Assembly (NCBI RefSeq): GCF_900114005.1
Contig: NZ_FORM01000001.1
Coordinates: 558,001 to 622,000 of the forward strand
Direction: 5' to 3'
DNA: 64,000 nt
DNA from: Olleya namhaensis
GTDB taxonomy: Bacteria > Bacteroidota > Bacteroidia > Flavobacteriales > Flavobacteriaceae
Below are positions 27,585 to 36,757 of this stretch, one piece after another. The notes under the pieces are model-generated. The model made no database searches. It had not been told where the DNA came from and saw only the letters and a program-made list of their open reading frames with translations. Positions within the stretch are counted from its first letter, which is position 1; every line of letters starts with the position of its first letter. The translations under genes and the position numbers were made by a program.

Positions 27585-28640
27585 TTATACGTCGTCATAA
27601 TCCACAGTTAAAGCAGGTGTTGTAGGATGTGCTTGACAAGTAAGTATTAAGCCTTCTGCAACTTCTGCATCTGTTAATATGTTGTTTTGTCTCATAACTG
27701 CTTTACCATCTACAACTCTAGCAATACAACTACTACATACACCGCCTTGGCAAGAATATGGTGCATCTAAGTCTTGTTTTAATGCAGCTTCAAGTATGGT
27801 TTGTTTTTGCGACATGATAAACGTTTCAGACTCATCATCTACAGTAACCGTAATTTCAGAGTTGCCTTCACTTGTGTTTACAGTCTCAGTTGTTGCTTGT
27901 GTAGCGGCTGTAAATAATTCAAAATGAATACTGCTTTTGGCAATATCATTTTCAATTAACACCTCTTTTGCAGTGTTAATCATAGCTTCTGGTCCACAAA
28001 GGTAAAAGTTATCTATGGTAACATGTTTGTATTTGTTTTTAACAATTAAGTTAACTGTACTTTTTTCGATACGTCCAAATAAGGCATTCTCTTCTTGAGA
28101 TTGGCTGTATAAAAACTGAATGTAAAAACGATCTACATATTTATGGTGTAGGGCTAATAATTCTTCTAAAAATATGGTGTCATTTTGTGTTTTGTTACCA
28201 TATACCAGTACAAAGTGACTTTTAGGTTCTTGTTCTAAAACTGTTTTTGCAATACTTAATATTGGTGTAATACCACTTCCGGCAGCAAAGGCTGCAATGG
28301 TGCGTTCTTCTGTAGGTTTTGGTTCAAAAACAAAACGACCTTGAGGTTTTGCAACGTCTAAAGTGTCTCCAACTTTTAAACTGTTGTTAGCGTAAGTACT
28401 AAAGGTTCCGTTTGGTACTGCTTTAACCGCAACGGTAAGTTTTCCGCTTGACGGAGAAGAACATAATGAGTAATCACGTCTTACTTCTGCATCGTTAATT
28501 TTAGTTTTTAGTGTAATATATTGTCCAGCTTTAAACGCGTAGTCTTGTTTTAAGTGGTCTGGTACATTAAAAGTCAAAGTAACACATTGGTCTGTTTGAC
28601 GTGTGATATCCGAAATAGTTAGTGTATTAAATTGAGACAT
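27585..28640 (-). CDS. FAD/2Fe-2S oxidoreductase (PaaE-like, ferredoxin reductase type)
   Basis: 351 residues in three domains. The FAD domain (residues 1-105) has RRDYSLCSS. The NAD(P) domain (residues 108-235) has AAGSGITPILSIAKTVL, YGNKT and FYLCGPEAMI. The C-terminal plant-type ferredoxin domain (residues 262-351) has PYSCQGGVCSSCIARV and a distal LTCQA, giving the four cluster cysteines. It passes electrons from NAD(P)H to a partner oxygenase or other acceptor. No phenylacetate oxygenase subunits are nearby, so PaaE function is not implied. Divergent from padR with an operator-like spacer. Confidence 0.87.
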   Translation of the reverse strand: MSQFNTLTISDITRQTDQCVTLTFNVPDHLKQDYAFKAGQYITLKTKINDAEVRRDYSLCSSPSSGKLTVAVKAVPNGTFSTYANNSLKVGDTLDVAKPQGRFVFEPKPTEERTIAAFAAGSGITPILSIAKTVLEQEPKSHFVLVYGNKTQNDTIFLEELLALHHKYVDRFYIQFLYSQSQEENALFGRIEKSTVNLIVKNKYKHVTIDNFYLCGPEAMINTAKEVLIENDIAKSSIHFELFTAATQATTETVNTSEGNSEITVTVDDESETFIMSQKQTILEAALKQDLDAPYSCQGGVCSSCIARVVDGKAVMRQNNILTDAEVAEGLILTCQAHPTTPALTVDYDDV

Positions 28641-28705: not shown

Positions 28706-28741
28706 ATACATAAGTTTATTATGCATAAGAAAATTATGTAT
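28706..28741. promoter_or_regulatory. putative PadR operator (nested palindromes)
   Basis: ATACATAA (28706-28713) and TTATGTAT (28734-28741) form a perfect inverted repeat around a perfect 10-base palindrome TTATGCATAA (28719-28728). The site lies between the divergent PaaE-like and padR genes and touches the padR -7 box. PadR dimers bind AT-rich inverted repeats of this kind, so autoregulation is likely (inference). Confidence 0.55.
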
Positions 28742-28746
28742 GTTTG
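28739..28746 (+). promoter_or_regulatory. -7 promoter box of padR
   Basis: TATGTTTG is a perfect TAnnTTTG match. It ends only 4 bases before the ATG at 28751, so the transcript would have almost no leader. It overlaps the putative operator. Confidence 0.5.
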
Positions 28747-28750
28747 TAAT

Positions 28751-29089
28751 ATGGCAAATTCAAAATTATATAAGGGTAGTCTGACCACTATTATTTTAAA
28801 GCTTTTAAATGAAAGCGAAAAAATGTATGGTTACGAAATGACGCAAAAAGTGAAAGCAATTACTAAAGGTGAACTTAATATTACCGAAGGTGCTCTGTAT
28901 CCTGCGTTACATAAGTTAGAGGCCGAAGGGTTGTTGGATGTCGAAGTTAAAAAAGTAGATAACCGTTTGCGTAAATACTACAAACTTACCGAAAAAGGTA
29001 ATAAAGAAACGGTTAGTAAATTGGAAGAACTTAAGGATTATATTAAAACGATGGAGACCTTTATGAGTCCTAAATTTAGTTTAGATTAA
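28751..29089 (+). CDS. PadR family transcriptional regulator
   Basis: 112 residues. The winged-helix domain is clear: YKGSLTTIILKLLNESEKMYGYEMTQ, then ITEGALYPALHKLEAEGLL and the wing VDNRLRKYYKLTEKG, with a short C-terminal dimer helix. An ATG at 28721 would add ten residues that are not conserved-looking and would lie across the operator and promoter. The ATG at 28751 (MANSKLYKG) is therefore preferred. One base separates its stop from the first of four paralogous membrane protein genes, so it heads that operon and probably represses it. Confidence 0.88.
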   Translation: MANSKLYKGSLTTIILKLLNESEKMYGYEMTQKVKAITKGELNITEGALYPALHKLEAEGLLDVEVKKVDNRLRKYYKLTEKGNKETVSKLEELKDYIKTMETFMSPKFSLD

Positions 29090-29090
29090 T

Positions 29091-29714
29091 ATGAAGTTAA
29101 GTCAAGAAAACATACAGTTTATAGATAATTACCTGATTAAACTTAAGGTGAAATTTGTAGATGTTAGATTAGAACTTATTGATCATTTAGCATCAGGATT
29201 TGAAGCGTCAAATAAAGAAGAGCAATTAGTAGACTATCTTAAGTCTAAAATTGATTTTATAAAAGACTTTGAAAAGAAACGTCAAAAAACAATCCATTGG
29301 AGTTATCAAAGAGAAATGTGGCGACGTTTAGCGATGTTTTTTTATAAGCCTAATTATCTTCCCTTTACTATAGCATTTGGATTTGCAGTGTATTGGATGC
29401 AGCAATTGCAGCTAAATACAGCATTTACTTTAATACTTATAGTTAGTCTGTCAATTATACATTTTTGGGCGCTTATAACGGGTTATTCTCATCATAAAAC
29501 CTTTAAAAAGTTGCAAATGGCACAGCCTTTATATTCAATAATGGCTTTACCTTCTTTATTTTTATACACTATGGGAGTAGCTAAACCATGGTTAGAAAAC
29601 CAATATTTTTTTATCGCCTTTTGGTTTTTAGCAATTTTATTTAACATAGCTGGAGGCATCGAGTTACGTAACAAAAAGAATAAGATTTTAGAGTATTCAA
29701 AAACTATTATCTAA
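29091..29714 (+). CDS. HAAS-like membrane protein, paralog 1
   Basis: 207 residues. The N-terminal helical domain MKLSQENIQFIDNYLIKL, then VDVRLELIDHLASG, is shared with the three following genes, but this copy lacks the later F-E-D-A...FG part and is about 20-30 residues shorter there. Four hydrophobic segments follow (about residues 90-105, 110-130, 145-162, 168-190). The D-x-R-x-E-L-x-D-H-L motif resembles the HAAS/DUF1700 helical domain that accompanies PadR regulators in other bacteria. It is probably an inner-membrane protein with a cytoplasmic N-domain. Function unknown. Confidence 0.78.
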   Translation: MKLSQENIQFIDNYLIKLKVKFVDVRLELIDHLASGFEASNKEEQLVDYLKSKIDFIKDFEKKRQKTIHWSYQREMWRRLAMFFYKPNYLPFTIAFGFAVYWMQQLQLNTAFTLILIVSLSIIHFWALITGYSHHKTFKKLQMAQPLYSIMALPSLFLYTMGVAKPWLENQYFFIAFWFLAILFNIAGGIELRNKKNKILEYSKTII

Positions 29715-29717
29715 ATA

Positions 29718-30398
29718 ATGAAGTTAACCAAAGACCAAATACAATACATAGATACCTACGTTGAAAAAAGCGGTATAGAATGGTTTGATTTAAAAATCGA
29801 ATTAGTTGACCACTTGGTTGATGCTGCTGCTCAAATTTTAGAAGACAATCCAAAGTTGCCTTTTGAGGATGCAGTAACAAAAGCGAAAATAGCTTTTGGG
29901 ACAAAAGGCTTCAGACCGTTAATAACTAATAGAACTAAGCAAATTGAAAAATCTTTTTATAAAAGGGTTTTTAAGTACCTAATATCCTTTTTTAGTTTGC
30001 CTAAAATTATTATTACAGCAGCTTTAATGTATGTATTAATCACCCTTTTTAATGTTGTTGAGGTTAAAGTATACTTTTTTAATAGTTTAGTAGGTGTATT
30101 ATTTGCTTTTACTATTCTTTCATTTTGGTGGTCTTATAGGCGTAAAACAATAGATAATAAAAAACATTTGTCATTAAGTTATATGCAATCCGTTTCGCAG
30201 TTTGTAAATATGTTGACTCAGTTATTTAGTTTTTCTCTTACACTTTTTAAATCAAGTTTTGTTGAAGGTCAAGGCATACTTTGGTTTATTGTTTTATGGG
30301 TGATTTCTTTTCTGTTTTGTATTGCGTCAGAAGTTGTGTCAAGACAAATTTATAAAGACCAAAAAGCACTGTATTATCAATATAAAATAGCAGCATAA
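29718..30398 (+). CDS. HAAS-like membrane protein, paralog 2
   Basis: 226 residues. MKLTKDQIQYIDTYVEKSG and FDLKIELVDHLVDA give the shared N-terminal helices; LPFEDAVTKAKIAFG (near residue 48) is the second half of the domain. Four hydrophobic segments follow between about residues 97 and 210. The first 35 or so bases of the gene are nearly identical to those of paralog 3, which indicates a fairly recent tandem duplication or conversion. It starts 3 bases after paralog 1. It is probably an inner-membrane accessory or sensor for the ABC transporter encoded downstream (inference). Confidence 0.78.
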   Translation: MKLTKDQIQYIDTYVEKSGIEWFDLKIELVDHLVDAAAQILEDNPKLPFEDAVTKAKIAFGTKGFRPLITNRTKQIEKSFYKRVFKYLISFFSLPKIIITAALMYVLITLFNVVEVKVYFFNSLVGVLFAFTILSFWWSYRRKTIDNKKHLSLSYMQSVSQFVNMLTQLFSFSLTLFKSSFVEGQGILWFIVLWVISFLFCIASEVVSRQIYKDQKALYYQYKIAA

Positions 30399-30404
30399 TT
30401 TTTA

Positions 30405-31121
30405 ATGAAGTTAACCAAAGAGCAAATACAATACATCGATAATTACCTTATTAAAAATGAGGTAAAATACTGGGATGTACGATTAGAATTGTTAGATCAT
30501 ATTGCATTGTCAGTAGAGGATTATATGAATATTAACGGGATGTCTTTTGATAAAGCCTTACTGGTAACCCACCAAGCGTTTGGTAACCAAACTAAAGTAC
30601 ATGGTATTTATCATGGTAAGTTAATGAAACAAGGTTTGTATGCCGACAACCAGGGCTTTAAGGATTTTGAAAAACAAAAGCAAAAAGACATTGGTAAAAA
30701 GTATAGACGGTTACATTGGCAAGGGTTAAAACAACTAATTAAATCGCCAAAGTTTTTACTAGAGTATCTATTATTTTGTGTGATGTTTTACCTCTGTTTT
30801 ATTTTAAATATTAAGGCAACTTTGATCTTAGGATTTATAATTTTAACAATACCTACTTTTTATAGTGGTTACCATTCGGCTATAAGTAAAATGGCAAGAC
30901 GATCTTTAAATATTGTATTATCTATTGGGATAATTGGATTACCATGGAATATTTACAATTTGGTATTGTTATCATTTAATGGTTTTTATGATGATCAAGC
31001 CAGTAAACCCTATTACATTTTATTTATACTAACCATTGTGTGCTATCCATTAGTGCGATCAGGTTTGAAAGTATATTTAGAAATTTTTAATGATTATAAG
31101 CAACAGTATAATTTAATATGA
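30405..31121 (+). CDS. HAAS-like membrane protein, paralog 3
   Basis: 238 residues, the longest of the four. MKLTKEQIQYIDNYLIKNE, then WDVRLELLDHIALS and MSFDKALLVTHQAFG, form the N-terminal helical domain. A charged linker (KDFEKQKQKDIGKKYRR) precedes about four membrane segments between residues 118 and 225. The FEKxxQK linker is also present in paralog 1, so these two are closest in that region. Its TGA stop overlaps the ATG of paralog 4 (ATGA), a sign of translational coupling. Confidence 0.78.
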   Translation: MKLTKEQIQYIDNYLIKNEVKYWDVRLELLDHIALSVEDYMNINGMSFDKALLVTHQAFGNQTKVHGIYHGKLMKQGLYADNQGFKDFEKQKQKDIGKKYRRLHWQGLKQLIKSPKFLLEYLLFCVMFYLCFILNIKATLILGFIILTIPTFYSGYHSAISKMARRSLNIVLSIGIIGLPWNIYNLVLLSFNGFYDDQASKPYYILFILTIVCYPLVRSGLKVYLEIFNDYKQQYNLI

Positions 31122-31807
31122 AGTTAACCCCACCTCAAATAGAAAACCTATATGCCTTTACAAGGCAACATTACGTGGAGCATTACGATTTACAAACCGA
31201 ATTAGTAGATCACTTAGCTAACGATATTGAGTCTGTTTGGCAAACGCAAACCAGCTTGTCTTTTGAAGATGCTAGAGATAAAGCTTTCAAAAAATTTGGA
31301 GTCTTTGGCTTTATGGACGTGTTAGAACGTCGTCAAAAAGCAATGAATAAACGCTACTTTAAATACTTATGGACAGAACTTAAGCAATGGTTTACGTTTC
31401 CTAAATTAATTACTACGCTAGCTTTATTTTTTGGTATTTATTTAGGGTTGTCTACCATTTTTGCAAAATCGTTTTTAATTGGTCTTTTTGTAATAATATG
31501 TGTTTTTACAATCTATAAAAGCACACAGTTAAACAGACAATTTAAACAGCGTAAAGCATTGTCCAATAAAAAATGGATGTTAGAAGAAATAATATTTAAA
31601 CAAGCAGGTGGATCTGCCATAATACTGTTAACCCAATTACCACAATGGTATAATTTTTCGGACAACATTTTTGATAATCCGTACATTGTTTTTGCTGTCT
31701 CTATTTTCTCTACACTGTTTTGTTTGTGGATGTATATTAGTTTTGAGGTTATACCAAACAAAGCAGAACAACTTTTAAATGAAACCTATCCAGAATTTTG
31801 TTTGTAA
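31118..31807 (+). CDS. HAAS-like membrane protein, paralog 4
   Basis: 229 residues. MKLTPPQIENLYAFTRQHYV, then YDLQTELVDHLANDI and LSFEDARDKAFKKFG, keep the domain pattern but are more diverged than copies 2 and 3 (Tyr-Ala replaces the common Ile-Asp). Four membrane segments lie between about residues 100 and 215. It is followed after 53 bases by the DUF5687 permease. Four such copies in a row between PadR and an ABC transporter is unusual. The function is inferred only from context. Confidence 0.76.
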   Translation: MKLTPPQIENLYAFTRQHYVEHYDLQTELVDHLANDIESVWQTQTSLSFEDARDKAFKKFGVFGFMDVLERRQKAMNKRYFKYLWTELKQWFTFPKLITTLALFFGIYLGLSTIFAKSFLIGLFVIICVFTIYKSTQLNRQFKQRKALSNKKWMLEEIIFKQAGGSAIILLTQLPQWYNFSDNIFDNPYIVFAVSIFSTLFCLWMYISFEVIPNKAEQLLNETYPEFCL

Positions 31808-31860
31808 CATTTTTACACATTTGTATACTTATCTATTAAACCAACCAAACATTAACCACT

Positions 31861-33339
31861 ATGATTAGTAAATTTTTAAGTCTAGAATGGAAATCTTTTA
31901 TACGGTCTTCCAACTTTGGTAAAGGCTTAGCTATAAAAATATTGATGGGGTTTTTTGCCTTATATTTTATAGCTGTCTTTTTGTCTTTAGGTGTTTTTAT
32001 TTATCCAGCGCTTAAAAATACGTTTCCAGACAAAGATCCTTTTGTGGTGGTCAATACATTATTGTTTTTCTGGTTTTTAGCAGATTTAATGCTACGCTTC
32101 TTCTTGCAAAAACTTCCAGTTATGAGCGTAAAACCTTTATTAACCGTGCCAATTAAAAGGCGTACAGTGGTTAATTATGTTTTAGGTAAGTCTGCGTTAT
32201 CTTTTTTTAACTTTCTGCCTTTATTTGCAATTGTGCCATTTAGTATTGTTTTAATAACTAAGGATTACGATGTTACTAGAGTTATTACATGGTTGTTAGC
32301 GATGCTATTACTAACGTTGATTAATAATTTTTTAAATTTTATTATTGAAAGTTTCTCGGCAGATACAGAGTTTTCGTTCCTTCCAATCATACTTTTTGCA
32401 GGAGCATTATTTGGGTTAAACCATTTTAATATTGTCAATTTTGCTGACTTATTATCATCAGCCATGTTAGCTATTACTAATAATCCTTTGTATTTATTGG
32501 TGCTTTTGGCGATATTAATTGGGCTATTTGTTTTTAATCATAAAATACTGATCAAAAAATTATACTTAGACAATTCACTTAAAACAAAAATAAAAGAAGT
32601 CACGACTTCAGATTTAGGTTGGACTAAACGTTTCGGAGAGGTTGCACCATTTATGCAATTAGATTTAAAACTAATCTGGCGTAATAAACGTCCAAGGTCT
32701 GCAGTGTTTATTTTGGTAATTGGACTTTTGTATGGATTGTTTTTTTACCCACAACCAATGTACAGAGATATGCCAATAATGTATGGTTTTATTGGTGTGT
32801 TTGTAACAGGGATATTTTTAATCAACTTTGGGCAATTTATTCCTGCATGGGATAGTGGTTATTACAAAATGTTAATGAGCCAGAACATCAAGTATGAGCA
32901 GTATTTAAAATCTAAATATACCTTAATGATGTTAAGCGTTATTATCATGTTTGTGTTAAGTATACCGTATGTGTATTTTGGATGGAAAATCTTAGTTGCA
33001 CATTTTGCAGCAGCCGTCTATAATATTGGTATTAATACTTACGTAATTATGCTTGGTGGGTCTTTTAACCGAAAAAAAATAGACCTAAACCAACGCGCAG
33101 CTTTTAACTACCAAGGGACTGGAGCAGTACAATGGATTATTGGTATTCCGTTGTTATTAATTCCGCTAGCCATTTTTGGATCGTTAACCTATTTTGTAGG
33201 TTTTTATGCAGGTATTTCTGCACTAATAGCTTTAGGATTAATAGGTATTATATTTCATCAAAAAACAATGCGCTTTATTACCAAAAAGTACTTGGCTTCT
33301 AAATATGAGATGGTCAAAGCTTTTAATGAAGACAATTAA
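31861..33339 (+). CDS. DUF5687 ABC-type permease
   Basis: 492 residues with about twelve hydrophobic segments. The start (MISKFLSLEWKSFIRSSNFG) and the cytoplasmic motif LLTVPIKRRTVVNYVLGKSAL match DUF5687 proteins, which act as ABC-2-like membrane subunits in Bacteroidota. The central charged region (residues 240-275, KTKIKEVTTSDLGWTKRFGE) is probably cytoplasmic. It is encoded 37 bases before its likely ATPase. The substrate is unknown; regulation by PadR suggests small toxic molecules or lipids. Confidence 0.85.
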   Translation: MISKFLSLEWKSFIRSSNFGKGLAIKILMGFFALYFIAVFLSLGVFIYPALKNTFPDKDPFVVVNTLLFFWFLADLMLRFFLQKLPVMSVKPLLTVPIKRRTVVNYVLGKSALSFFNFLPLFAIVPFSIVLITKDYDVTRVITWLLAMLLLTLINNFLNFIIESFSADTEFSFLPIILFAGALFGLNHFNIVNFADLLSSAMLAITNNPLYLLVLLAILIGLFVFNHKILIKKLYLDNSLKTKIKEVTTSDLGWTKRFGEVAPFMQLDLKLIWRNKRPRSAVFILVIGLLYGLFFYPQPMYRDMPIMYGFIGVFVTGIFLINFGQFIPAWDSGYYKMLMSQNIKYEQYLKSKYTLMMLSVIIMFVLSIPYVYFGWKILVAHFAAAVYNIGINTYVIMLGGSFNRKKIDLNQRAAFNYQGTGAVQWIIGIPLLLIPLAIFGSLTYFVGFYAGISALIALGLIGIIFHQKTMRFITKKYLASKYEMVKAFNEDN

Positions 33340-33376
33340 TCAATTCAATTAAATCAACCTTTACAACTACTACATC

Positions 33377-34087
33377 ATGATAACAACAACAAATCTTTCA
33401 AAAAAATATAGCGGAAAAGAAGTATTAAATATTTCTAGTTTAGACATTCCTAAAGGTCAAAGTTTTGGGCTTGTAGGTAATAATGGAGCAGGAAAAACAA
33501 CCTATTTTAGTTTGCTTTTAGATTTAATAAGACCAACAACAGGAGATATTAAAAACAATGGTATTTTAGTAAGTCAAAGTGAAGACTGGAAACCGTTTAC
33601 TTCTGCATTTATAGACGAAAGTTTTTTGATAGGCTATTTAACCCCAGAAGAATACTTTTATTTTATCGGTGATTTACGTGGTCAAAACAAGCAAGATGTA
33701 GATAATTTAGTGGCTCAGTTTGCAGATTTCTTTCATGGCGAAATTCTTGGTCAGAAAAAATATCTTCGTGATTTAAGTAAAGGAAACCAAAAAAAGGCAG
33801 GTATTGTTGCTGCGCTTATAGGTAATCCTGAAGTGATTATTTTAGACGAACCTTTTGCTAATTTAGATCCAACAACACAAATTAGACTAAAGGAAATTAT
33901 TAAAGATTTAGCGGAGACAAAAGGAGTAACAGTGTTGGTATCTAGTCATGATTTAATGCATGTTACAGATGTGTGCGAGCGTATTGTTGTGTTAGATAAG
34001 GGGCACGTAATTAAGGATATACAAACTAGTGAGGCTACTTTAAAAGAATTAGAAGCACACTTTTCGGGTGCGGTAGACGTGGCTTAA
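33377..34087 (+). CDS. ABC transporter ATP-binding protein
   Basis: 236 residues. Walker A is GNNGAGKTT near residue 35. The Q-loop region lies around SQSEDWKPF. The signature is degenerate, LSKGNQKKAG instead of LSGGQ. Walker B is VIILDEPFANLDP near residue 155, and the switch histidine is in VLVSSHDLMHV. Together with the DUF5687 permease it makes one ABC-2-type transporter driven from the cytoplasm. Last gene of the PadR-headed unit; the next gene follows after 123 bases. Confidence 0.93.
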   Translation: MITTTNLSKKYSGKEVLNISSLDIPKGQSFGLVGNNGAGKTTYFSLLLDLIRPTTGDIKNNGILVSQSEDWKPFTSAFIDESFLIGYLTPEEYFYFIGDLRGQNKQDVDNLVAQFADFFHGEILGQKKYLRDLSKGNQKKAGIVAALIGNPEVIILDEPFANLDPTTQIRLKEIIKDLAETKGVTVLVSSHDLMHVTDVCERIVVLDKGHVIKDIQTSEATLKELEAHFSGAVDVA

Positions 34088-34210: not shown

Positions 34211-36757
34211 TTGAAGATAGCATTAAAAATTTGTATAGTTTCGGGATTAATCTTAGCAACAGTCACTAGTTGTTCAAGAAAAAAAAACAGCTTCATAAAT
34301 CGTAGTTTTCATGCAGTTACTGCAGAATATAACGCTTTGTTTAATGGTTTTGAAGCCTTAAAACAAGGTCGAGATAATCTAAACAACGACTACAAGGACA
34401 ACTATTGGGAGATTTTACCGGTAGAGCGTATGCAAGTTAGTGAAGAGATTGTATTACCTGGTCAATCAAAAAATCAAGATTTTACAAAAGCAGAAGAAAA
34501 AGCGGTAAAAGCAATTCAGAAACACGGAATGAATATTCAGGGTAAAGAATATAACCCGCAAATTGACGAAGCTTATTTATTGTTAGGAGAAGCAAGATAT
34601 TTTGATCAACGTTTTGTGCCAGCATTAGAAGCTTTTAATTACATCCTTTACAAATATCCAGCGTCAGATAAGATTAACACTGCAAAGGTATGGAGAGAAA
34701 AAACCAACATGCGTTTAGAAAATGACGAGTTGGCTATTACAAATCTTAAACGTCTTATCGAGCAAGAAGAGTTAGAAGGACAAGAATTAGCAGATGCGAC
34801 TTCAATCTTAGCACAAGCTTATATTAACACAAAATCTTTAGACAGCGCATTAACCCAAATTAAAATTGCATCAAAAGCAACTAAAGTTAATGACGAAAAA
34901 GGACGTTTCAACTTTATAAAAGGACAACTTTACAATGTGCTAACTTATAAAGACAGTGCTAACCTTGCATTTGATGAGGTTATTGACTTAAACCGAAAAA
35001 TTCCACGTCGTTACTTAATGGCGGCTCAAATAGAAAAAGCAAAAAACTTTGATTACGATAAAGGTGATAAAATAGCATTTTTAAAGCACTTAAGTAAGTT
35101 AGAAAAAGATAGAGAAAATCGTCCATATTTAGATAAGATTTATCATCAAATTGGCGAGTATCATTTAGCTAATAAATCAGATTCTTTAGCGGTTGCGTAT
35201 TACAATAAGTCTTTAAGAGAAAAATCTAAGGATAGAATTTTAGTTGCTAAAAACTATGAGACTTTAGGCGATTTTTACTTTGACAGAAACAACTACAAAT
35301 TTGCAGGTGCGTACTTTGATAGTACAATGACAAGCATGGTAGAAAACAGTAAGCCATTCCGTACTATTAAGCGTAAACGCGAAAACTTAGATGATGTTAT
35401 TTATTACGAAGGTATTGCTGAGGTTAATGACAGTATTCTTAGACTAGTAAAAATGCCGGAAGCAGAACGTTTAGCGTTTTTTACAGACTACACCAATACA
35501 TTAAAACAGCGCTTAGAAGCAGCAAAAGAAAAATTAGAAATAGAAGCACGTAAAAGTGGATTAGCAACAAATGACAATTTGTTTAATAATACAATCACAC
35601 CAAGAGGTGGTTTGCCAGGAGCGGGTTCTAACTTTTACTTTTATAATCCAAGTACTGTTGCATATGGTAAAAACGAATTTTCACGTATTTGGGGAGAACG
35701 TAAAAACGAAGACAATTGGAGATGGTTTTCTGCCAGAGCAGGAGGATTTGCTAATCAATCGGATTTAGATGTCTCTGCATTGGAGGATGAAGATAATGTG
35801 TTATTAAATCCTGACTTTTATATGTCGCAACTACCTTCAACAGAAAAAGAGTTAGACAGCATTAAAAAAGATCGTAATTATGCGTATTACCAATTAGGGT
35901 TAATCTATAAAGAGAAGTTTAAAGAGTATAACTTGTCTAAAAGTAAATTTTTAAACTTATTAGATAGTAATCCAGAAGAGAAATTAGTCTTGCCATCAAA
36001 ATATAATTTGTTTAAGATTTACGAGATCTTAGGACAAAATGATGAGGCTTCTATCGCCAAAGCAGACATTATTGCTAATCATGCAAATTCTAGATATGCT
36101 GAGATTTTGAAAAACCCAGAATTAGCAGCAACAAGAGATGATAGTAGTCCGGAAAGTTTATATGAAGACACTTATAAGTTATTAGAAGGACAAGAATACC
36201 AGCAAGTCATTACGCGTTCTAAAAAGTACATGTCCTTTTTTGATGGTGATGGTATGGTTCCTAAATTTGCATTGCTTAAAGCAACTGCAGAGGGAAGATT
36301 AAACGGATATCAAGCCTATGTTGATGGGCTTAACGATGTTGCTTTAACATTTGCTAATACAGAAGAAGCCATTCAGGCGCAATCTATTATAGCTAGCTTA
36401 AAATCGGTTAGTGATAAAACGTTTAAGCCAGATACTGAGTCTACTAAGTTTAAAGTTGTGTTTCAGTTTAGTAACAATGAGTTAGAAGCTATTAGTAGCT
36501 TCAAAGAGATTTTGGATGAGGTAACGCAAAAAATTACGTATTATAATATGTCAACGTCTGTAGATATATTTAATGCAGAAACAACATTTGTTGTTGTGCA
36601 TGGTTTAAAAAGTGTTGAAGGCGCAAAAGGCTTTGCAGATATATTGAAAGCAGAGGATAAGTATAAAATTAGCAGACCTTATTTTGGAATTTCGTCTGAT
36701 AACTATAAGACGCTTCAAATACATAAAAATCTAAACGAATATTTAGCAATTAAATAA
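34211..36757 (+). CDS. sprE: gliding motility/type IX secretion lipoprotein SprE (PorW)
   Basis: 848 residues. The TTG start at 34211 is chosen because it alone gives a complete lipoprotein signal, MKIALKICIVSGLILATVTSC, with Cys at residue 21. TPR-like helical repeats fill residues 55-400 and 540-720. A conserved opening, SFHAVTAEYNALFNGFEAL, is typical of SprE/PorW. In Flavobacterium johnsoniae SprE is needed for gliding and type IX protein secretion. The protein sits in the periplasm anchored by lipid. It is followed after 12 bases by bactofilin, so the two may be co-expressed. Confidence 0.88.
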   Translation: MKIALKICIVSGLILATVTSCSRKKNSFINRSFHAVTAEYNALFNGFEALKQGRDNLNNDYKDNYWEILPVERMQVSEEIVLPGQSKNQDFTKAEEKAVKAIQKHGMNIQGKEYNPQIDEAYLLLGEARYFDQRFVPALEAFNYILYKYPASDKINTAKVWREKTNMRLENDELAITNLKRLIEQEELEGQELADATSILAQAYINTKSLDSALTQIKIASKATKVNDEKGRFNFIKGQLYNVLTYKDSANLAFDEVIDLNRKIPRRYLMAAQIEKAKNFDYDKGDKIAFLKHLSKLEKDRENRPYLDKIYHQIGEYHLANKSDSLAVAYYNKSLREKSKDRILVAKNYETLGDFYFDRNNYKFAGAYFDSTMTSMVENSKPFRTIKRKRENLDDVIYYEGIAEVNDSILRLVKMPEAERLAFFTDYTNTLKQRLEAAKEKLEIEARKSGLATNDNLFNNTITPRGGLPGAGSNFYFYNPSTVAYGKNEFSRIWGERKNEDNWRWFSARAGGFANQSDLDVSALEDEDNVLLNPDFYMSQLPSTEKELDSIKKDRNYAYYQLGLIYKEKFKEYNLSKSKFLNLLDSNPEEKLVLPSKYNLFKIYEILGQNDEASIAKADIIANHANSRYAEILKNPELAATRDDSSPESLYEDTYKLLEGQEYQQVITRSKKYMSFFDGDGMVPKFALLKATAEGRLNGYQAYVDGLNDVALTFANTEEAIQAQSIIASLKSVSDKTFKPDTESTKFKVVFQFSNNELEAISSFKEILDEVTQKITYYNMSTSVDIFNAETTFVVVHGLKSVEGAKGFADILKAEDKYKISRPYFGISSDNYKTLQIHKNLNEYLAIK

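Follow-up and report, generated by a model that had tools for sequence, protein, structure and literature searches.

The stretch of DNA analysed here, called the window, comprises 64,000 nucleotides of Olleya namhaensis (contig NZ_FORM01000001.1, positions 558,001 to 622,000 of the forward strand). Between its positions 28,706 and 34,087 lie a gene for a PadR-type regulator, four paralogous genes for small membrane proteins, here called T1 to T4, and two genes for a DUF5687 membrane protein and its partner ABC ATPase. Such an arrangement recalls the HAAS-PadR dyad, in which a helical HAAS domain is proposed to contact PadR and transmit a signal (PMC11237479; this and the other papers cited are drawn on through parts of their text). 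A preliminary description had read the whole row as one cassette, and its list of genes with their coordinates agrees with the reading frames and Pfam assignments:

28706..28746, plus strand: putative PadR operator and promoter of padR-T, a double (overlapping) palindrome ATACATAAG-N4-TTATGCATAAG-N4-TTATGTAT
28739-28746, plus strand: flavobacterial -7 box TATGTTTG at the end of the double palindrome
28751..29089, plus strand: padR, 112-aa PadR-type winged-helix regulator (Pfam PF03551, E=2.3e-21, 76 bits, passing the cut-off of 27)
29091..29714, plus strand: T1, 207 aa, HAAS-like N-domain and membrane domain; old T1 group in the tree
29718..30398, plus strand: T2, 226 aa, HAAS-like N-domain and membrane domain; long branch at the base of the tree's T4 side
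30405..31121, plus strand: T3, 238 aa, HAAS-like N-domain and membrane domain; sole window protein matching permease prefix domain 1
31118..31807, plus strand: T4, 229 aa, HAAS-like N-domain and membrane domain; the type that closes nearly every array of the family survey on the DUF5687 side
31803..31831, plus strand: motif TGTAAC-N17-TACTTA, of the type of a promoter for an extracytoplasmic function (ECF) sigma factor, for DUF5687-ABC; the T4 stop codon and the -35 part share bases
31861..33339, plus strand: DUF5687 membrane protein, putative ABC permease, 492 aa (PF18940, 633 bits), with its own promoter motif
33377..34087, plus strand: ABC ATPase, partner of DUF5687, 236 aa (PF00005, E=6.1e-21)

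The longest padR frame spans 28721-29089, and the start at ATG 28751 was chosen by its conservation among relatives. A single base (29090) separates the padR stop from T1, as had been described; T1 and T2 are 3 nt apart, T2 and T3 6 nt, and T3 and T4 overlap by 4 nt. All four T proteins indeed start with MKL(S/T) and carry the pattern D-x3-E-L-x-D-H-(L/I), in which D24, E28, L29, D31 and H32 are invariant.

padR and T together make up the true unit of this locus. With a profile built from T1-T4, 149 genomes of the family were searched, and the loci found were then opened. T proteins occur in 37 of these genomes, and padR lies upstream of T in 38 of 39 T loci, in 35 of those 38 within 70 nt; the exception is L067, a T locus without padR in genome G147. 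A scan for named relatives with T4 found padR upstream of T in 47/47 loci (45/47 within 70 nt), although it used exact T4 peptide words and is therefore biased to close relatives, the closest of which among its matches are Olleya proteins of 77-85% identity to T4. These named loci hold one T frame in 12 cases, two in 18, three in 10, four in 5, and five and six in one each, counts that include some split or partial frames. In a scan of the phylum, T matches were found in at least 41 of 392 genomes, a lower bound because 7 candidates per genome were scored. Outside the family, 20 of 21 T places were opened, and padR stands beside a T gene (18 loci) or a T-domain fused to a permease (2 loci) in all 20. 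It lies downstream of T in L191 and in L190, the latter having a padR fragment as well. At L204:5001-7697 and L206:4986-7697, padR is followed by a MacB_PCD/FtsX permease of about 900 aa whose N-terminus is the T N-domain. Such recurrence (47/47, 38/39, 20/20) rules out a chance pairing, so that the association of padR with HAAS-like domains, noted earlier as known in other phyla and published as the HAAS-PadR dyad (PMC11237479), is real and widespread.

Several observations border on this survey. In four genomes of the family (L069-L072) a second, separate dyad consists of a padR of the MYSKEL/MYSREL type and a T-like protein of 142-148 aa. At L201:4308-5558, beside padR, a T-like protein ends in a GldM N-terminal domain. 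Two genes of L208 were matched in the phylum scan and left unmatched by the local T profile, and L073, a weak match of the T profile, proved on opening to have no T, padR or DUF5687.

The putative operator of the unit is conserved as well. A 41-bp element, ATAC(A/C)TAAG-N4-TTATGCATAAG-N4-TTATGTATATTTG, covers the padR promoter, and its end is the flavobacterial -7 box TAnnTTTG recorded in PMC9723704. The window copy scores 32 of 33 informative positions, the maximum of 50 shuffles being 22, and a score of at least 24 is reached in 33/37 padR loci of the family survey and 41/47 named padR loci. The element is absent from the second-type dyads L069-L072. It is kept in all three named loci that lack both paaE, the divergent neighbour of padR described below, and DUF5687 (L246, L252 and L255, with scores of 33, 30 and 33), one of which lies outside the family (Balneicella). 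Within the genome of O. namhaensis the half-palindrome pattern is found only at the padR promoter and at two sites inside open reading frames (ORFs). Repressors that act on their own promoter have such a layout, with a dyad site across the -7 box, which suggests PadR as the binding protein. We rejected the idea that PadR controls DUF5687 through an operator of its own: upstream of DUF5687 genes without padR the element scores at least 24 in 0/38 cases, and these regions include L109, L110 and L108 (genomes G009, G030 and G147), whose genomes have a T locus elsewhere.

What kind of proteins are T1 to T4? Compared pairwise, their N-domains are 26-48% identical and the remaining parts 18-25%, the N-domain being more alike in all six pairs. 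D31 and H32 are kept in 91/92 T N-domains. The alignment of the family comprised 64 of 68 T sequences, four fragments being excluded, together with the 4 window proteins. An AlphaFold2 model of T4, with a predicted local distance difference test (pLDDT) score of 95, shows a helical N-domain followed by long helices, which makes the proposed figure of about four membrane helices per protein plausible; simple hydropathy gives 2-3 strong membrane segments. This model and one of the N-domain alone (pLDDT 88) are both confidently helical, with a break at FG-x-x-G-F between helices 49-58 and 66-91.

Profile comparisons connect this N-domain to permease prefix domain 1 (NF038403). Residues 24-65 of T3 match it with E=6.7e-4 and 19.4 bits, under the cut-off of 30, and at E<=1 weak matches are found in 8/68 T members of the family (T3 and 7 others; best E 5.1e-5). 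With hhalign, 65 T N-domains aligned to 22 permease-prefix N-domains, namely those of the 29 loci that pass the model cut-off, reach a score of 30.1 (Prob 65, 74 columns). The reversed alignment scores 12.1, and 100 column shuffles have a mean of 9.2, a standard deviation of 1.8 and a maximum of 14.4. PMC11237479 names MacB/FtsX fusions, from which we infer that NF038403 belongs to HAAS. The literature searched holds no mention of 'permease prefix domain'.

The four copies are not the product of a recent tandem duplication, an origin that was considered and rejected, as a tree of 85 T proteins, whose bootstrap is not fully settled, places them in separate old groups. T4 clusters with almost every T that comes last in an array of the family survey, T1 and T3 lie in other parts of the tree, and T2 forms a long branch. 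Only at L062 and L063 is the last T of the T1 type. Duplicates that are likely to be recent do occur elsewhere, namely both upstream copies of L053 and of L057, and also at L046. The T4 type is the only nearly constant T, and copy number varies even within Olleya, where two of three loci have two T genes and one, L213, has four. By nucleotide match L213 has T1, T2 and T4 in common with the window; its first T is unmatched and T3 is absent.

The transporter genes follow a different distribution. DUF5687 is present in 115/149 genomes of the family, at one place per genome (a broken copy in G005 was seen as two overlapping matches), as compared to 37/149 for T. A survey of synteny thus upholds padR-T as a constant pair and finds DUF5687 mostly without it. 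Conversely, padR-T occurs without DUF5687 in 16/47 named loci, one of which (L225) stops at a contig end, and in 20/20 of those opened outside the family, where DUF5687 was absent within about 5 kb, while T copies range from 1 to 6. A transporter dedicated to a four-copy array, as first envisaged, does not fit these numbers. The ATPase signature LSKGNQ, which had been called degenerate, is the usual form in DUF5687-partner ATPases: it is found in 96/100 orthologues, and Walker A and B patterns in 100/100, so this idea was dropped as well. The statement that no function has been described holds for DUF5687, a name without mention in the literature searched.

Control of the two parts also appears to differ. 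For this comparison 40 of the 84 genomes of the family with DUF5687 and without a linked T were opened, mostly the best-scoring ones. TGTAAC lies within 110 nt upstream of 55/71 DUF5687 genes, 27/31 with T and 28/40 without (shuffles 3%); a motif kept with or without padR-T speaks against a single cassette. In 50 of the 55, counted from the listing, it stands 45-65 nt before the start, usually 17 nt before TACTAA or TACTTA. In its own genome the promoter pattern occurs at 13 sites, compared with 1 for the reversed control. Six of these lie 23-33 nt before a start codon, five inside long ORFs and two further from a start. The genes behind the six encode an ECF sigma factor, an M16 peptidase, a DUF4199 protein, two proteins without a Pfam match, and DUF5687. 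The sigma factor gene, located at C27:125071-125562 in this genome (L126/L256; family loci L256-L285), is found in 74/80 genomes of the family. Among the best 30 loci of these 74 genomes, 29 upstream regions were readable: TGTAAC is present in 29/29, 28 of them at 53-59 nt, and the full pattern TGTAAC-N17-TACTWAT in 24/29 (shuffles 0.1%). Because the motif is common to DUF5687 operons and the sigma gene, DUF5687-ABC most likely belongs, with or without padR-T, to the regulon of an autoregulated core ECF sigma factor. We do not equate TGTAAC with the ECF motif SM6 of F. psychrophilum, which is described by a CGT box (PMC9723704). The 53-bp gap between T4 and DUF5687 holds no terminator-like site on the plus strand.

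Two further features of the transporter genes may be recorded. In L044, L040, L085, L087, L088, L095 and L098 a small gene of secreted type heads the DUF5687-ABC operon and carries TGTAAC; for L098 Pfam assigns its product to DUF2059. By their scores against the copy in the window, the DUF5687 proteins of L034-L065 fall into two groups (E of roughly 1e-213 to 1e-240 and of 1e-90 to 1e-145), which are mixed among loci and perhaps represent two subtypes.

On the chromosome, the row is framed by two conserved neighbours:

27585-28640, minus strand: PaaE-like reductase, divergent neighbour of padR (TIGR02160, 371 bits, under the cut-off of 420.8)
34211-36757: PorW/SprE, type IX secretion lipoprotein (NF052312, 803 bits)

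The order paaE (divergent), padR-T, DUF5687-ABC, PorW/SprE is found in 28/30 T loci that have DUF5687, and the same order without T is kept in 2/2 padR-only loci and, lacking both padR and T, in 29/38. The module therefore seems to come and go at one chromosomal site. Loci with padR alone or with a truncated T (L085, L105, L068, L045, L066) look like stages of decay. As a neighbour of padR-T, paaE is as constant as the transporter. Some arrays of Tenacibaculum (L229, L231, L223, L238, L242) contain four to six T-like frames with paaE and without DUF5687-ABC. PorW/SprE, a component of type IX secretion, is the conserved downstream neighbour of DUF5687-ABC and a possible hint at the role of the transporter.

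How does this unit compare with systems already described? HAAS proteins likewise carry a helical N-domain on a multi-transmembrane protein and are described as always lying beside a stand-alone PadR (PMC11237479, published in 2024), with fusions that include uncharacterised four-transmembrane (4TM) and MacB/FtsX domains. The T proteins differ in their lack of the GxP motif and of a Pfam HAAS match, and in forming tandem arrays of 1-6 genes that, in one family, stand before DUF5687-ABC. In the main text of that paper 'Bacteroidet-' occurs once, concerning PspA/Snf7 and not HAAS. Permease prefix domain 1 resembles the T N-domain at the profile level, but is fused to a permease, whereas here the domain sits on separate small membrane proteins. 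The best NCBIfam match of the window PadR is the acidobacterial-type TIGR03433 (75 bits, under its cut-off of 101.8).

The nearest experiment, by analogy, is that on Listeria LltR and Lmo0600 (PMC6624303). In a mutant of this PadR-type regulator its own transcript and a DUF1700 membrane gene rise more than 100-fold; an autorepressed padR followed directly by a multi-spanning membrane gene is the likeness. The lltR-lmo0600-lmo0601 locus differs in having one membrane gene and then a DUF4097 exoprotein, without a transporter. A transcriptional unit of Zobellia galactanivorans that lies beside paaE consists of padR (ZGAL_1768) and the uncharacterised gene after it, and is induced with a log2 fold change above 3 on six polysaccharides (PMC5613140). 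Gene order alone, with paaE, padR and a downstream gene arranged as in the window, suggests that ZGAL_1767-1769 is probably the same locus. The authors of that study read the regulator as a repressor of phenylacetate degradation, and HAAS, DUF5687 and a transporter go unmentioned in the part of their paper drawn on here.

Taken as a whole, these comparisons lead us to propose, leaning only slightly towards the full mechanism, that padR-T1-T4 works as a membrane-linked one-component switch and represents a Bacteroidota version of the HAAS-PadR dyad that has diverged. PadR would bind the conserved double palindrome across its own -7 box and repress padR-T. Each T protein would place its HAAS-like helical domain, with the near-invariant E-L-x-D-H surface, in the cytosol and, in the envelope, a membrane domain that evolves fast. 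The T proteins probably monitor the condition of the cell envelope and free the switch: upon a signal, one or more T domains would attach to PadR and remove it from the operator, and padR-T would be induced as a result. As the paralogues share the conserved domain presumed to face PadR and differ more in their membrane parts, they would most likely report different signals to a single regulator. The unit lies just upstream of a widely shared transporter, from which it seems to be wired separately. DUF5687-ABC would be transcribed from its ECF-sigma-type promoter motif, and read-through from padR-T across the gap may raise its expression. More tentatively, and with clearly less confidence, we suggest a multi-input array in which several co-encoded membrane receptors differ in their membrane domains, have a HAAS-like docking domain in common and compete for a single repressor.

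A number of findings weigh against this interpretation. The GxP motif, conserved in HAAS where it lies at the kink of the third helix (PMC11237479), occurs in 1/92 T N-domains, with G-x-x-G in its place in 50/92; the same loose pattern is present in only 4/22 of the permease-prefix sequences. T1-T4 have no Pfam match to HAAS, DUF1700, DUF1048 or DUF1129 at E<=5 and no match over any cut-off in Pfam and NCBIfam scans, and among the 25 listed of 108 Pfam families for the 68 T members there is no HAAS-type family. Neither does a sequence-profile search of the PDB give a credible match for T. Foldseek, run with the T4 model and with the N-domain alone, listed no solved HAAS structure; for this small helical domain it and VIA-align (T4 model) returned generic helical matches only, and DUF1048 2O3L is not among the entries listed. 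The domain is therefore termed HAAS-like, since profile similarity is found but GxP and Pfam matches are absent and no solved relative is listed. As judged from sequence comparison, it represents a diverged branch related to the permease-prefix/HAAS domain rather than a strict HAAS member, and the earlier expectation stands with respect to the similarity to permease prefix domain 1 and falls with respect to Pfam HAAS/DUF1700.

Other points concern the coupling of the parts. The mean identity of PadR is 76%, versus 35% for the last T (28 loci), and PadR and last-T distances correlate weakly (r=0.22; 110/2000 permutations as high). A mirror-tree analysis, from which L062 and L063 with their T1-type last copy were excluded, gives r of 0.15-0.35 among PadR, T and transporter genes and 0.44 for the DUF5687-ABC pair, and strict co-inheritance is therefore not claimed. 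In L085, L105 and L068 T is lost or broken though padR and the operator remain. Among family arrays 28/30 stand between paaE and DUF5687, a tighter coupling than independent units need. TGTAAC is missing from 16/71 DUF5687 upstream regions; in 7 of these 16 an interposed DUF2059 gene carries the motif, which brings the count to 62/71 operons. Finally, paaE is in the locus in 13/16 named loci without DUF5687, mostly of Tenacibaculum, so the site with paaE would be older than the loss or absence of DUF5687 in these loci.

The close placement of T before DUF5687 (28/30 family loci, 31/47 named loci), together with the same kind of domain being fused to MacB/FtsX permeases in L204, L206 and the permease-prefix proteins, raises the question of whether the T proteins belong to DUF5687-ABC as regulatory or accessory subunits. 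Their HAAS-like domain would then couple transporter activity, a form of flux sensing, to PadR, and the whole row would be one system. We consider this unlikely, given that most DUF5687-ABC pairs do without padR-T (115 versus 37 of 149 genomes), that arrays of up to 6 T genes exist without the transporter, which is found in 0/20 loci outside the family, and that DUF5687-ABC keeps a separate promoter motif. An effector role seems more improbable still: here the T proteins would be membrane proteins made under stress and repressed by PadR, without feedback on it. Derepressed Lmo0600 impairs growth of Listeria at 6 C, which its deletion restores (PMC6624303), but two points favour contact with PadR: T is constantly paired with padR in different families, and in each copy the N-domain is better conserved than the rest.

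Since paaE is kept beside padR-T without DUF5687, it has to be asked whether the main target of repression by PadR is the divergent gene for a paaE-like reductase of phenylacetate degradation, as proposed for ZGAL_1768, with the T proteins as passengers or effectors; the persistence of paaE there makes this reading more probable than it would otherwise be. In Zobellia paaE goes down when padR goes up (PMC5613140), the operator sits in the intergenic region common to both genes, and paaE is the divergent neighbour in 28/30 T loci with DUF5687 and still in the locus in 13/16 named loci without it, as well as in L064 and L066. On the other hand, paaE is at the same place in 32/38 loci without padR, and therefore does not need PadR; the operator is kept without paaE and DUF5687 at L246, L252 and L255 (scores 33, 30, 33), and its site overlaps padR's own -7 box. 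Control of paaE as the main task of PadR thus appears improbable, and the membrane-linked switch is the reading we retain.

What would this mean for these bacteria? HAAS-PadR has been proposed as an alternative to two-component systems, and the padR-T locus offers a natural test set for it: one conserved PadR (76%) and operator are combined with a T partner in 1 to 6 copies, including Olleya with 2 and 4. The predicted control of PadR by T is open to tests by removing genes in marine bacteria that can be cultivated. If the multi-input array is true, a lineage would tune its sensing by gain and loss of receptor genes, a kinase-free counterpart of many sensors acting on one response regulator. 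The analysis also separates two controls which a one-operon reading would merge, and makes the unstudied DUF5687 transporter a likely regulon member of a core ECF sigma factor of flavobacteria.

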